Shown here one piece after another: positions 19,570 to 32,003 of a stretch of 32,003 nt of DNA. The notes under the pieces were generated by a model. It searched no databases. It was not told the origin of the DNA and saw nothing but the letters and a program-made list of their open reading frames with translations. The DNA is from an uncultured Methylococcaceae bacterium (GTDB lineage: Bacteria > Pseudomonadota > Gammaproteobacteria > Methylococcales > Methylococcaceae): assembly GCA_903911305.1 (NCBI GenBank), contig CAIWDB010000464.1:1-32003 (forward strand). Reading direction: 5' to 3'. Each line of letters opens with the position of its first letter. Within the stretch, counting starts at the first letter, position 1. Position numbers and translations under genes: made by a program.

Positions 19570-21102
19570 ATGTCCTGCTTGCCCTGGAAAAATGGGTGGC
19601 CTGACTCACTTCATTGTTTCACACTTGCGGAGAATTTATCCATGGCTGAATTAGCCGAATATGTTGAAGGACTGCCTAATATTTGCGGTCAAGAAGCCGA
19701 AATCAAGGAGACTCTGCAAAACAGAGCTTCGACCATTTACGCTCATGAAACCCATATCCCTTTTGACCGAATCAATAGTGCTTGTGCCATTGCCCTGCAT
19801 ATGCACCAACCCCTTATTCCAGCGGGCGGATGGGATTTGCCTACCGCCGCAATCATTAGCAATCTTCAGTACATGATGGAAAATCAAGGTATTGGCGACA
19901 ACCACAATGCCGGGGGGTTTCATTGGTGCTACAAGCGCATAGGCGAATTCGTGCCGCAAATGATCCACGAAGGCAAGCAGCCTCGCGTGATGTTGGAATA
20001 CTCGGGAACTCTGTTTCACGGGCTTAGAAAAATGGGTTTGCACGATGTCATTGACACCTTGAAAAATATCACTTGCAATCACCAATACCGACATGCAGTG
20101 GAATGGTTGGGCGCACCTTGGGGCCATGCCGTTGCCCCTTCCACGCCCGCACAAGACTTCAGACTGCACGTGATGGCTTGGCAGCATCATTTCGCCGCTA
20201 TTTTCGGCAAAGAAGCCTTAAGCCGTGTGCGCGGTTTTTCACCTTCGGAAATGGCCTTGCCTAACCATCCTGATGTCGCCTATGAATACATCAAAACCCT
20301 TCGCGATTGTGGCTACTCTTGGGTATTGATACAGGAACATACCGTCGAACAGCCCGAAACTGGTCATGGGATCGAAAAGAAGCACCTTCCTCATCGACTG
20401 GTGTGCCAAAACTCTGCCGGCGAGAGCATCGACATCATTGCCATCATCAAAACCCAAGGCAGTGACACCAAGCTAGTGGCCCAGATGCAACCTTATTACG
20501 AAGCGAAAAGCCTGACTCGATGGGAACTGGGCGGGAAAAGCGTCCCGCCCTTGGTCACTCAGATTGCCGATGGGGAAAACGGCGGGGTGATGATGAATGA
20601 GTTTCCTGGCAAATTCTTTGACGTGTCCCGTGAATCGACAGGTTCGAACACGCCCATGCTTAACGTCACCGAATACTTGGAATACTTGTTTGGCTCTGGC
20701 GTCAAAGAAAGCGACTTTCCCATAATCCAACCTATTCATCAAAAGGCGATTTGGACTCGCTTCAAGGCCGGGGATGGGCCTGAGAAGCTGGCCAAGGTAA
20801 TCGAAGAATTGCGCAAAGAGGATCACCGTTTCCATATGGAAGGCGGCAGTTGGACCAATGATATTTCTTGGGTCAGAGGGTACGAAAATGTACTTGGCCC
20901 GATGGAGGAAGCCAGTTCGCTATTTCATGAGAAAGTGCTAAAGCCAGGCATCCCTCCCAGTGACCCGCGATATCGCAATGCCTTGTTTCATTTGATGACC
21001 GCACAAACCAGTTGCTACCGCTACTGGGGACAAGGTCAGTGGACAGACTATGGGCGGGAAATTTGCAGACGGGCGGTTGACATTCTGCAACACGACTTTT
21101 AA
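19570..21102 (+). CDS. Glycoside hydrolase family 57 protein
   Basis: ACAIALHMHQPLIPAGGWDLPTAAIISNLQYMM...GGFHWCYKRIGEFVPQMI...VMLEYSGTLFHGL...FSPSEMALPNHPDVAYEYIKTLRDCGYSWVLIQEHTVE. ATG 19642 is a possible alternative start. Confidence 0.88.
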   Translation: MSCLPWKNGWPDSLHCFTLAENLSMAELAEYVEGLPNICGQEAEIKETLQNRASTIYAHETHIPFDRINSACAIALHMHQPLIPAGGWDLPTAAIISNLQYMMENQGIGDNHNAGGFHWCYKRIGEFVPQMIHEGKQPRVMLEYSGTLFHGLRKMGLHDVIDTLKNITCNHQYRHAVEWLGAPWGHAVAPSTPAQDFRLHVMAWQHHFAAIFGKEALSRVRGFSPSEMALPNHPDVAYEYIKTLRDCGYSWVLIQEHTVEQPETGHGIEKKHLPHRLVCQNSAGESIDIIAIIKTQGSDTKLVAQMQPYYEAKSLTRWELGGKSVPPLVTQIADGENGGVMMNEFPGKFFDVSRESTGSNTPMLNVTEYLEYLFGSGVKESDFPIIQPIHQKAIWTRFKAGDGPEKLAKVIEELRKEDHRFHMEGGSWTNDISWVRGYENVLGPMEEASSLFHEKVLKPGIPPSDPRYRNALFHLMTAQTSCYRYWGQGQWTDYGREICRRAVDILQHDF

Positions 21103-22480: not shown

Positions 22481-22903
22481 ATGAAAAAGTTAAAAACCGT
22501 TTTTATATCGAAGGCTCCTCTTCTTTCCAATTTAATCAAAGAAGTATTGTGTAAAAAGGTTTCGATTGAGTGTATGGGTGAGCTTCCTGTTTCTGATGAT
22601 CTGCTTGATCGCTTAATAGAGATGGCCCCAGACTTAGTGCTTGTTGGCTTGTCATCTGAGGTTACTGATACGTTCGCACTTAGTATTTTGTGTGCATTGC
22701 CGCTAGCCAAAGTGATCACCTATACCATTGATGGTAGGCATGCGTATCTCAATGAACTAATTTATCAACAGCGGCCATTGATTGATCTCTCACTAGAGAC
22801 ACTGGTTTCTGCCATCGTTGAAAATCAACAGGCAGAATGGTGTTTCCTTCCACAGGCAAGTAATTCCGTTCCATTTTTTAAATCGAGTAGCTTAAGGGGT
22901 TAA
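22481..22903 (+). CDS. Stand-alone receiver-like protein lacking a recognisable phosphoacceptor
   Basis: MKKLKTVFISKAPLLSNLIKEVL...PDLVLVGLSSEVTDTFALSILCALPLAKVITYT; receiver-like order of hydrophobic strands and helices, no HTH. Confidence 0.55.
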   Translation: MKKLKTVFISKAPLLSNLIKEVLCKKVSIECMGELPVSDDLLDRLIEMAPDLVLVGLSSEVTDTFALSILCALPLAKVITYTIDGRHAYLNELIYQQRPLIDLSLETLVSAIVENQQAEWCFLPQASNSVPFFKSSSLRG

Positions 22904-29239: not shown

Positions 29240-29980
29240 ATGCATAAACAAACTGTGTTTCAAGCTTTGTTTGCAATAGGGTTTTGGCTGTTCGCTTGCT
29301 CTGTTTCAGCAGAAAATGAAACCATCCTTAAAACTAATCAAGATAAGATGAGTTATGCTTTAGGGGCAGATGTCGGTAGAAATATTCGAAAACAGGAATT
29401 ACAAGTCAATGTCGATTTGATGGTAAGGGGTCTGAAAGAAGCACTGACAGGTCAAAAGCTGTTAATGTCAGAAAAGGAGGTTCACCATGTCATGCAGGGT
29501 GTCATGGCAGAAGTTCGCCAGAAAATGGCAGCGTTACAAGCTCATGCCGCAGAAGAAAATCGCAACAAAGGCGAAGCATTCTTGGCAGAAAATAAGAAAA
29601 AGCCCAATGTGGTCACACTGCCTAGCGGTGTGCAGTATAAAATCATCAAGGCTGGCAATGGCAAAAAGCCAACCATGAACGATGCGGTCGAATGCAATTA
29701 TCGCGGGACATTGTTGGATGGTTCTGAGTTTGATGCCACCGAATCGGGAAAGCCGGCGACATTACAGGTTTCCCAACTGATTAAAGGGTGGAAAGAAGCG
29801 CTTATGTTAATGCCTGAAGGCTCCAAGTGGGAGATTTACATACCATCGCAGTCTGCCTATGGCACGAGAGGTGTGGGCAACGAAATAGGGCCTAACGCCA
29901 CTTTGTTTTTTGAAGTTGAGCTTGTTGCTGTCAAACCTGCACAGAAGCCAAATCCTGCACCAAATCCAGCATCTCCTTAG
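29240..29980 (+). CDS. FKBP-type peptidyl-prolyl isomerase, FkpA/Mip-like (MofB-like)
   Basis: Signal peptide; N-terminal helical dimerisation-like domain (DKMSYALGADVGRNIRKQ...); FKBP domain NYRGTLLDGSEFDATESGKPATLQVSQLIKGWKEALMLMPEGSKWEIYIPSQSAYGTRG. Confidence 0.93.
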   Translation: MHKQTVFQALFAIGFWLFACSVSAENETILKTNQDKMSYALGADVGRNIRKQELQVNVDLMVRGLKEALTGQKLLMSEKEVHHVMQGVMAEVRQKMAALQAHAAEENRNKGEAFLAENKKKPNVVTLPSGVQYKIIKAGNGKKPTMNDAVECNYRGTLLDGSEFDATESGKPATLQVSQLIKGWKEALMLMPEGSKWEIYIPSQSAYGTRGVGNEIGPNATLFFEVELVAVKPAQKPNPAPNPASP

Positions 29981-30045
29981 ATAAAGGGCTTTGGTATTGA
30001 TAATGCCCTATTATCAAGGATAATCAATTCATTACGGAAATCGAC

Positions 30046-30732
30046 ATGGTATTCAAAAGTTATATTAATTCACACAGGGTCCCCGTATACGTTTATTTAT
30101 TTTTCTTATTTATGGCAAGCTTGTTACTGCCACTGACGGTTAATTCCGATACACCATCTCCTTCATCAAATGAAGCCTCACCGACTTCACTGGATGAAAA
30201 TAAAGGAACGGGTGATACCCCGGCCGATTTAAAAAGAGCGGGCAAGCGCAGTTGGATGAGGGCTGGTGTTTCTAATTACAAAAACAGCGTTGCACTCATG
30301 GAGCAAAACAAATCTCAACTTGGTGTAGTCACCCTGAAGAGTGGTTTGCAATATAAGATACTTAAACAGGGCGAGGGTGGCATTCCAACCAAGACCGATA
30401 CCGTTGAAGTTTATTTTCAAGGCACTCTGATTGACGGAACCATATTCGCCAGCGCCCCAAACAACCTAAATCCGGCTGTCTTCAAGATGGCTGAAGTCAT
30501 TCCTGGTTGGCGGCAGGCACTGTCGTTGATGCCAGTGGGCTCTCGGTGGCAGCTTTTTGTCCCACCTTCGCTCGGTTATGGAACAAAGGGTTTGTCCCCG
30601 TCGATTGGACCCAATGCAACATTGATCTATGATTTGGAGTTGGTCAAGATTAGACCGGCGGCATCACCTAAGACCGTGCAAAAGACACCTCATCAAACAC
30701 AGACTAACCCAAGCTCTTCAACCCCTCAATAA
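30046..30732 (+). CDS. Second FKBP-type peptidyl-prolyl isomerase, short form
   Basis: VEVYFQGTLIDGTIFASAPNNLNPAVFKMAEVIPGWRQALSLMPVGSRWQLFVPPSLGYGTKGLSPSIGPNATLIYDLELV; N-terminal hydrophobic segment. Confidence 0.9.
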   Translation: MVFKSYINSHRVPVYVYLFFLFMASLLLPLTVNSDTPSPSSNEASPTSLDENKGTGDTPADLKRAGKRSWMRAGVSNYKNSVALMEQNKSQLGVVTLKSGLQYKILKQGEGGIPTKTDTVEVYFQGTLIDGTIFASAPNNLNPAVFKMAEVIPGWRQALSLMPVGSRWQLFVPPSLGYGTKGLSPSIGPNATLIYDLELVKIRPAASPKTVQKTPHQTQTNPSSSTPQ

Positions 30733-30749
30733 TAAACTGGTGATCCACC

Positions 30750-32003
30750 ATGGGCTGGTTAAAAGAATTAAGCGTTACTCGACACGATACCTCTTCTGCT
30801 AATGTATCCATTTACTGGCACGGAAGTGTAACCCTGTTGTTCTGTCTATACTTTTCGCTAGGGGTTTGCGCCGAAACCGTCCCAGCCGAGAAGGAGCCTA
30901 ATAATCCGTCTACGAGCGGAATAACTACTGACCCAATTGAGATAGGCCGTCGCATTTATCAGGAAGGTATCTTGCCAAACGGTCAACAGCTTATAGGTAT
31001 GCTGCCCGATAATATGAAATTCGAGGGCCAGCAAGCTTCGTGCGCGAATTGCCATCGACCCAGCGGCATGGGAACAGTCGAGGGAGAGAATCAAATCCAA
31101 CCCATCACAGGTAAGTTTTTATTCGCTAAAAAGGGCGATATGGCCTTGGCGACCATGGACACACGCATAGGCAAACGTTTTAACCAATCCCATGAACCTT
31201 ATACTGATGAGTCATTGGCTAAGGCAATCAGTGAAGGGATGACGGTTGGTGGAAGGAAGATGAACCCAATGATGATGCCACTTTACCCGTTGGCAAAGCC
31301 CGAAATGGATGGGTTGATTGCTTACTTAAAGCAGTTGTCGTCGCAAACTTCACCCGGCGTTACCGAACAGGTGATTCATTTTGCCACGGTCATTGCACCG
31401 GGTGTTTCTGCTGATCGGCGTAAGCTGTTACATGATATGATTCATGGCATTATCGTTCAAAAGAATGGCAGTACAGTTGTCGGTAACCGTGGAAGTAGGC
31501 ATCACATGGCATCAGCCGCCGAGCTGGTGTTGGGAACTGAGCGAAAATGGGAAGTCCATGAGTGGGAATTGCAAGGTGAGCCTGAATCTTGGTTAGGTCA
31601 ATTGGAAAAGCTCTACCAAAGCCAACCCGTGTTTGCCCTCGTTTCAGGAGTATCTGATACAACTTGGCAACCAGTCCAAGCGTTCTGCCAGCAACAAAAA
31701 GTACCTTGCTGGTTTCCTAGCGTCTATCTACCGCCGTTATCGGAACAGCATTATTCCATTTACTTTTCGCGTGGATTGGCACTGGAAGCTGAAGTTTTGG
31801 GAAAATATCTACGTGATAATAAGAAAGCCCGTCCAAAAAGCCTAATTCAAGTTTATCGGGATGATTATGTAGGCAAGGGCGCTGCCGAAGAACTAACGAG
31901 AGTATTAGCCGATTCGGGAATCAAACTTGAAAACAGGATTTTGAAAAATGACAATCCAGAGGAGTGGAAAAGTATTCTATCTGGTCTTGGTAAAAATGCC
32001 ACC
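30750..32003 (+). CDS. c-type cytochrome fused to a periplasmic-binding-protein-like domain, partial (MofC-like)
   Basis: Translated by hand from ATG 30750: MGWLKELSVTRHD...CANCHRPSGMG (31041-31055) ... GRKMNPMMMPLYPLAKPEMDGLIAYLKQL ... PVFALVSGVSDTTWQPVQAFCQQQKVPCWFPSVYLPP...; open to the right edge, absent from the ORF track. Confidence 0.8.
   Translation, partial: MGWLKELSVTRHDTSSANVSIYWHGSVTLLFCLYFSLGVCAETVPAEKEPNNPSTSGITTDPIEIGRRIYQEGILPNGQQLIGMLPDNMKFEGQQASCANCHRPSGMGTVEGENQIQPITGKFLFAKKGDMALATMDTRIGKRFNQSHEPYTDESLAKAISEGMTVGGRKMNPMMMPLYPLAKPEMDGLIAYLKQLSSQTSPGVTEQVIHFATVIAPGVSADRRKLLHDMIHGIIVQKNGSTVVGNRGSRHHMASAAELVLGTERKWEVHEWELQGEPESWLGQLEKLYQSQPVFALVSGVSDTTWQPVQAFCQQQKVPCWFPSVYLPPLSEQHYSIYFSRGLALEAEVLGKYLRDNKKARPKSLIQVYRDDYVGKGAAEELTRVLADSGIKLENRILKNDNPEEWKSILSGLGKNAT

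Follow-up and report, generated by a model that had tools for sequence, protein, structure and literature searches.

What does a cytochrome domain joined to a ligand-binding fold do beside a secreted multicopper oxidase? The question is raised by a reading frame at the end of the DNA analysed here (the window, 32,003 bp), which is one whole contig (G000:C464) of a 5.84-Mb genome in 661 contigs. The initial annotation had noted a single frame of 418 codons hidden at the edge, and this frame is indeed open to the contig end. As the window is the entire contig, the gene was cut by the assembly and extension was impossible. We identified its product as a further copy of MofC, the described but putative partner of the secreted copper oxidase MofA. 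Judged from the sequence, the frame would almost certainly be the 5′ two-thirds of a mofC gene in a MofA-type operon. The fusion is not a new one; He et al. 2017 (PMC5566968) had already described MofC-like proteins as having a periplasmic binding domain in addition to a cytochrome c.

Table 1. Coordinates of the mof-type genes and of the mapped MofC features in the window
Feature	Position (bp)	Strand	Evidence
SCO1/SenC copper chaperone, 209 aa	22942..23571	+	Pfam SCO1-SenC, E 4.3e-19
MofA-like secreted multicopper oxidase, 1569 aa	24305..29014	+	Pfam Cu-oxidase_2
MofB-like FKBP peptidyl-prolyl isomerase with FKBP_N, 246 aa	29240..29980	+	Pfam FKBP_N and FKBP_C
Second FKBP isomerase, shortened FKBP_N, 228 aa	30046..30732	+	Pfam FKBP_C, E 4.6e-23
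MofC-like protein, N-terminal 418 residues of an expected ~590-650	30750..32003	+	Pfam, relatives, tree, structure
Cytochrome c domain, residues 95-197	31032..31340	+	Pfam Cytochrom_C
Heme site C98-x-x-C101-H102	31041-31055	+	CxxCH motif
Axial Met176	31275-31277	+	Conservation
Type-I periplasmic binding protein (PBP) fold, first lobe and start of second, residues ~208-418	31371..32003	+	Pfam, structure, Foldseek, conservation

The two halves of the truncated protein

The N-terminus has a hydrophobic stretch at about residues 26-39 followed by VCA|ET, and looks signal-like by eye. The cytochrome half matched Pfam Cytochrom_C with an E-value of 3.6e-6 (28.6 bits, cut-off 21.3). In an alignment with 80 relatives, C98, C101 and H102 were kept in each of the 80 comparable sequences, and all 81 sequences had Met176-Pro177. 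The protein therefore has the single c-type heme site with a methionine axial ligand by which we recognised MofC. The CxxCH site had been predicted correctly. Concerning the Met-rich segment put forward for the axial ligand, M176 stood up to the comparison; the rest was mostly incidental, and M174 is an insertion peculiar to the window sequence. Reading this stretch as a copper-binding motif was dropped because Met176 alone is conserved.

Only the first ~210 residues of the periplasmic binding domain are present in the contig; an intact gene would be expected to run on for about 170-230 codons, up to the FASKGAYI...WIVP tail that is conserved in the family. The residues present include a match to Pfam Peripla_BP_6 (residues 247-393, E 1.2e-8, 35.4 bits, cut-off 31.7), and this domain is a further mark of MofC. 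In the same alignment W306 and C313 were invariant and C320 was kept in 78 of 81 sequences; the two cysteines possibly form a disulfide. A loop of the form SG-x-x-x-x-TW-x-P, which includes W306, was strongly conserved.

The structure predicted for the window protein from a 37-sequence alignment had a mean pLDDT of 80.6, with much of the C-terminal part exceeding 90, and its elements follow each other as beta-alpha-beta, as in a type-I PBP lobe. Over about 210 residues, Foldseek matched this model to PBP-like receptors and to proteins that bind sugars or amino acids. We also modelled a full-length relative of 587 aa, 53% identical to the window protein (alignment A1), using AlphaFold2 and an 11-sequence alignment. 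It gave a mean pLDDT of 78 and a pTM of 0.77, and its best matches in the PDB were LivJ-type and aromatic-acid-binding type-I PBPs (best E 2.8e-12). Rows from plasmid records were excluded from the alignments used for structure prediction. Both the Pfam match and the predicted structures thus agree with the initial annotation, which had proposed a type-I PBP-like C-terminal domain and a structure search to check it. Sequence searches of the PDB gave only weak or cytochrome-only matches, and NCBIfam yielded no family.

A family-profile search did not find the C-terminal third of the window mofC elsewhere in the host assembly. The one other match of the profile in that assembly, G000:C240:589-978 (L061), corresponds to the C-terminal domain of the MofC family. 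It was rejected as the missing 3′ end, being a short G+C-rich fragment of a different copy, either a remnant or foreign.

Relatives, phylogeny and gene neighbourhood

Relatives were gathered by searching genome contigs with a six-sequence alignment. Nearly all of them encode the two domains together in a single unbroken frame of about 540-680 aa, and no frameshift lies between the two halves. The possibility that the frame is a chance ORF, or two genes joined by a sequencing error, is negligible and was considered refuted, because the same fused architecture recurs as single frames in 80 loci of two phyla. The loci L030-L035 and L084 encode single-heme proteins of about 370-580 aa that are more distantly related, and several of them adjoin SCO1; they match mainly the cytochrome half and belong to a wider family around SCO1.

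The maximum-likelihood tree of 81 proteins (window plus 80 relatives) splits into two groups. The window protein falls in a 22-row clade (SH-aLRT 100) of methanotrophs, Sulfuricella, Ferrigenium, Rhodocyclales and Burkholderiales. This clade contains all 19 MofB-linked rows, a placement by which the protein was again assigned to MofC. The other 59 rows, the sister clade, come from Burkholderia, Paraburkholderia, Collimonas, Sideroxydans, Anaeromyxobacter and others, and in none of them did a co-directional MofB-type isomerase adjoin the gene. The host genome has a pmoA/amoA-family gene (PF02461, E 6.8e-118), and among the named carriers of the protein the one closest to the window in the tree is a Methylococcaceae MAG; the host is therefore most likely a gammaproteobacterial methanotroph.

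Immediately upstream of the truncated gene are a mofA-type oxidase and a mofB-type isomerase, as is expected of mofC. The gaps are 225 bp from the oxidase to the first isomerase, 65 bp between the isomerases and 17 bp from the second isomerase to the truncated frame. In the oxidase, the copper motifs HLHG (264), HDH (344), HPVHFH (1070) and then WHCHILGHEENDFM, which was read directly in the translation, follow in the order of the four copper-binding motifs of the MofA type. Together with the Cu-oxidase_2 match, they bear out the MofA-like neighbour named at the outset. The core of the original interpretation, a heme/PBP fusion beside a MofA-like multicopper oxidase, therefore holds; what it missed was that this is the known mofABC operon, and its suggestion of ligand delivery is disfavoured by the permease survey given below.

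The region 29240-30732 holds two tandem FKBP isomerases instead of a single mofB, the second with a remnant FKBP_N match. Such a pair is also found in G012:C512 (L021), and three copies are present in G009:C3 (L023). Upstream of SCO1, the ORFs at 19570-21102 (510 aa) and 22481-22903 (140 aa) had no Pfam or PHROG match.

The initial annotation had also proposed a survey of how often the fusion neighbours MofA-like oxidases. We surveyed 28 loci in 17 genomes with full-length family members, the window included; the genomes had been picked for carrying the MofC family, not for oxidases. A Cu-oxidase_2 gene lay within 16 kb in 22 of the 28 loci. The remaining six were on contigs of 3.0-8.1 kb, and one of these (G376:C40) had an oxidase fragment recognised by a custom profile. 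Among the full-length copies on contigs longer than about 8 kb, all 22 (again including the window) had the oxidase gene within this distance. Since the genomes were chosen for the family and contain 1-14 Cu-oxidase_2 matches each, the counts place this proximity far beyond chance. Of the 28 loci, 19 had SCO1 within 8 kb, in most cases next to the gene. What is new here is this survey, in which the binding-protein half keeps company with multicopper oxidases and SCO1 rather than with ABC transporters.

Possible roles of MofC

The Peripla_BP_6 match would suit the solute-binding subunit of an ABC importer with an accessory heme domain, and one Paraburkholderia homologue bears a database name of this kind ("ABC transporter substrate-binding protein"). 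However, a LIV-type permease (PF02653, BPD_transp_2) was found neither in the host genome nor in five other family-carrying genomes. Within 10 kb of the gene it occurred at one of the 28 loci, G298:C37, where the permeases lie about 4-6 kb away on the opposite strand. It is therefore unlikely that the binding-protein half supplies an ABC importer or forms one of its subunits. We rejected this role for want of a cognate permease and consider it very improbable.

The reading that we favour, with somewhat better than even confidence, is that MofC would be an exported, dedicated redox accessory of the oxidase, acting in the cell envelope. In this scheme, the His/Met-ligated heme would pass electrons one at a time between the periplasmic cytochrome pool and the copper-oxidase system. 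Its partner on the copper side may be the oxidase itself or copper held by SCO1. The PBP-like half would serve in docking or ligand recognition rather than as a transporter subunit. The domains, their fusion, the heme ligands, the gene order, the constant oxidase neighbourhood and the lack of an ABC partner were counted in its support. Our confidence that MofC is a redox accessory and not an importer is moderate; that in any given direction of electron flow is low. Multicopper oxidases pass electrons to O2 and can do without a cytochrome acceptor; chemically, MofC need not be an electron acceptor in the strict sense. The putative electron acceptance suggested by the initial annotation is close to the published hypothesis, and the part of MofC in Mn(II)/Fe(II) oxidation is putative even for Leptothrix (PMC5566968).

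A maturation role has nearly as good support as the redox accessory, and we regard it as a serious if less probable alternative. MofC, together with SCO1 and the FKBP isomerases, would copper-load and fold the very large secreted oxidase; a partner protein would be held by the PBP-like half, while the heme would control whether copper or the SCO1 cysteines are oxidised or reduced. Among the immediate neighbours SCO1 is the most frequent, and it often overlaps the gene or lies only a few bases off, in both clades and in Myxococcota; the isomerases sit between the oxidase and mofC. PBP-like folds without a transporter can be protein scaffolds, and LpoA was among the Foldseek matches. In the sister clade SCO1 is the most constant neighbour and the isomerase is missing, so a role in copper maturation fits equally. 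However, gene neighbourhood in the operon does not by itself tell maturation from catalysis, and the MofB-linked loci L090, L091 and L095-L097 have no SCO1 within 3 kb. We think it unlikely that MofC is a redox-linked ligand sensor, whose PBP half would bind a small molecule (e.g. a metal chelate) and gate electron transfer by the heme. The conserved loop with W306 and the lack of an ABC transporter to serve are consistent with such a sensor, although conservation of the loop could equally be structural and no dedicated signalling partner was identified. Equally improbable in our estimation, the half might be an orphan receptor for a specific metal chelate or small ligand that gates heme electron flow; if so, MofC would act as a redox switch under ligand control, by which methanotrophs and iron oxidisers regulate extracellular metal oxidation. 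The role of MofC, and whether MofA oxidises manganese or iron, is a long-standing question in metal biogeochemistry, and the survey places a testable constraint on that role.

Comparison with known systems

LivJ/LivK-type solute-binding proteins (Peripla_BP_6) share the fold of the window protein at about 10-15% identity in structural alignment, whereas the window protein adds a heme domain and has no ABC transporter partner. The sister clade shares the fusion, and in many members a nearby SCO1, but not MofB. One of its loci (L037, Paraburkholderia, 1286-31008) resembles the window in that the fusion lies near two multicopper oxidases; it also contains SCO1, type II secretion genes and a cadherin-like protein of 2723 aa, which suggests that the oxidases or this giant protein are secreted.

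In Geobacter sulfurreducens, a distant MofC homologue, GSU1397, lies beside SCO1 and near OmpB (PMC5566968). Like the window, this cluster combines a MofC homologue, SCO1 and a multicopper oxidase, in this case an outer-membrane one, but it has no mofB, and GSU1397 is said to be 29% identical to MofC (PMC5566968). OmpB has EXXE, a reported iron-binding motif (PMC5566968), whereas no EXXE motif was found in the window oxidase.

The mofABC operon of Leptothrix discophora is treated in He et al. 2017 (PMC5566968). The operon occurs in L. discophora SS-1, L. cholodnii, Ferriphaselus R-1 and Gallionellaceae KS (Brouwers et al. 2000, as cited in He et al. 2017). MofA is a putative oxidase of manganese or iron. 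SCO1-type copper chaperones occur in some mof clusters (PMC5566968). As in the window, MofC of these operons joins a cytochrome c to a binding domain and lies downstream of the MofA oxidase and the MofB isomerase. The likeness to Leptothrix refers to this description and the gene order, as none of the 80 loci returned came from Leptothrix and the sequence comparison was made with KS. The closest named example is Candidatus Ferrigenium straubiae KS, with a 55% identical MofC and the same gene order. Its KS03 locus (L091), which judging from the isolate name is presumably the Gallionellaceae KS of He et al. 2017, encodes in order an oxidase of 1450 aa, an isomerase of 331 aa and a MofC of 588 aa. 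The window oxidase is 47% and 43% identical to the KS oxidase over two long segments, and the first window isomerase (246 aa, MofB-like) is 53% identical to the KS isomerase. Compared with the Leptothrix and KS operons, the window differs in its methanotroph host, in having two isomerases rather than one, in the SCO1 gene upstream of mofA and in a mofC copy cut by the contig end. The locus thus adds a methanotroph example of mofABC and is otherwise an ordinary homologue of a described gene.
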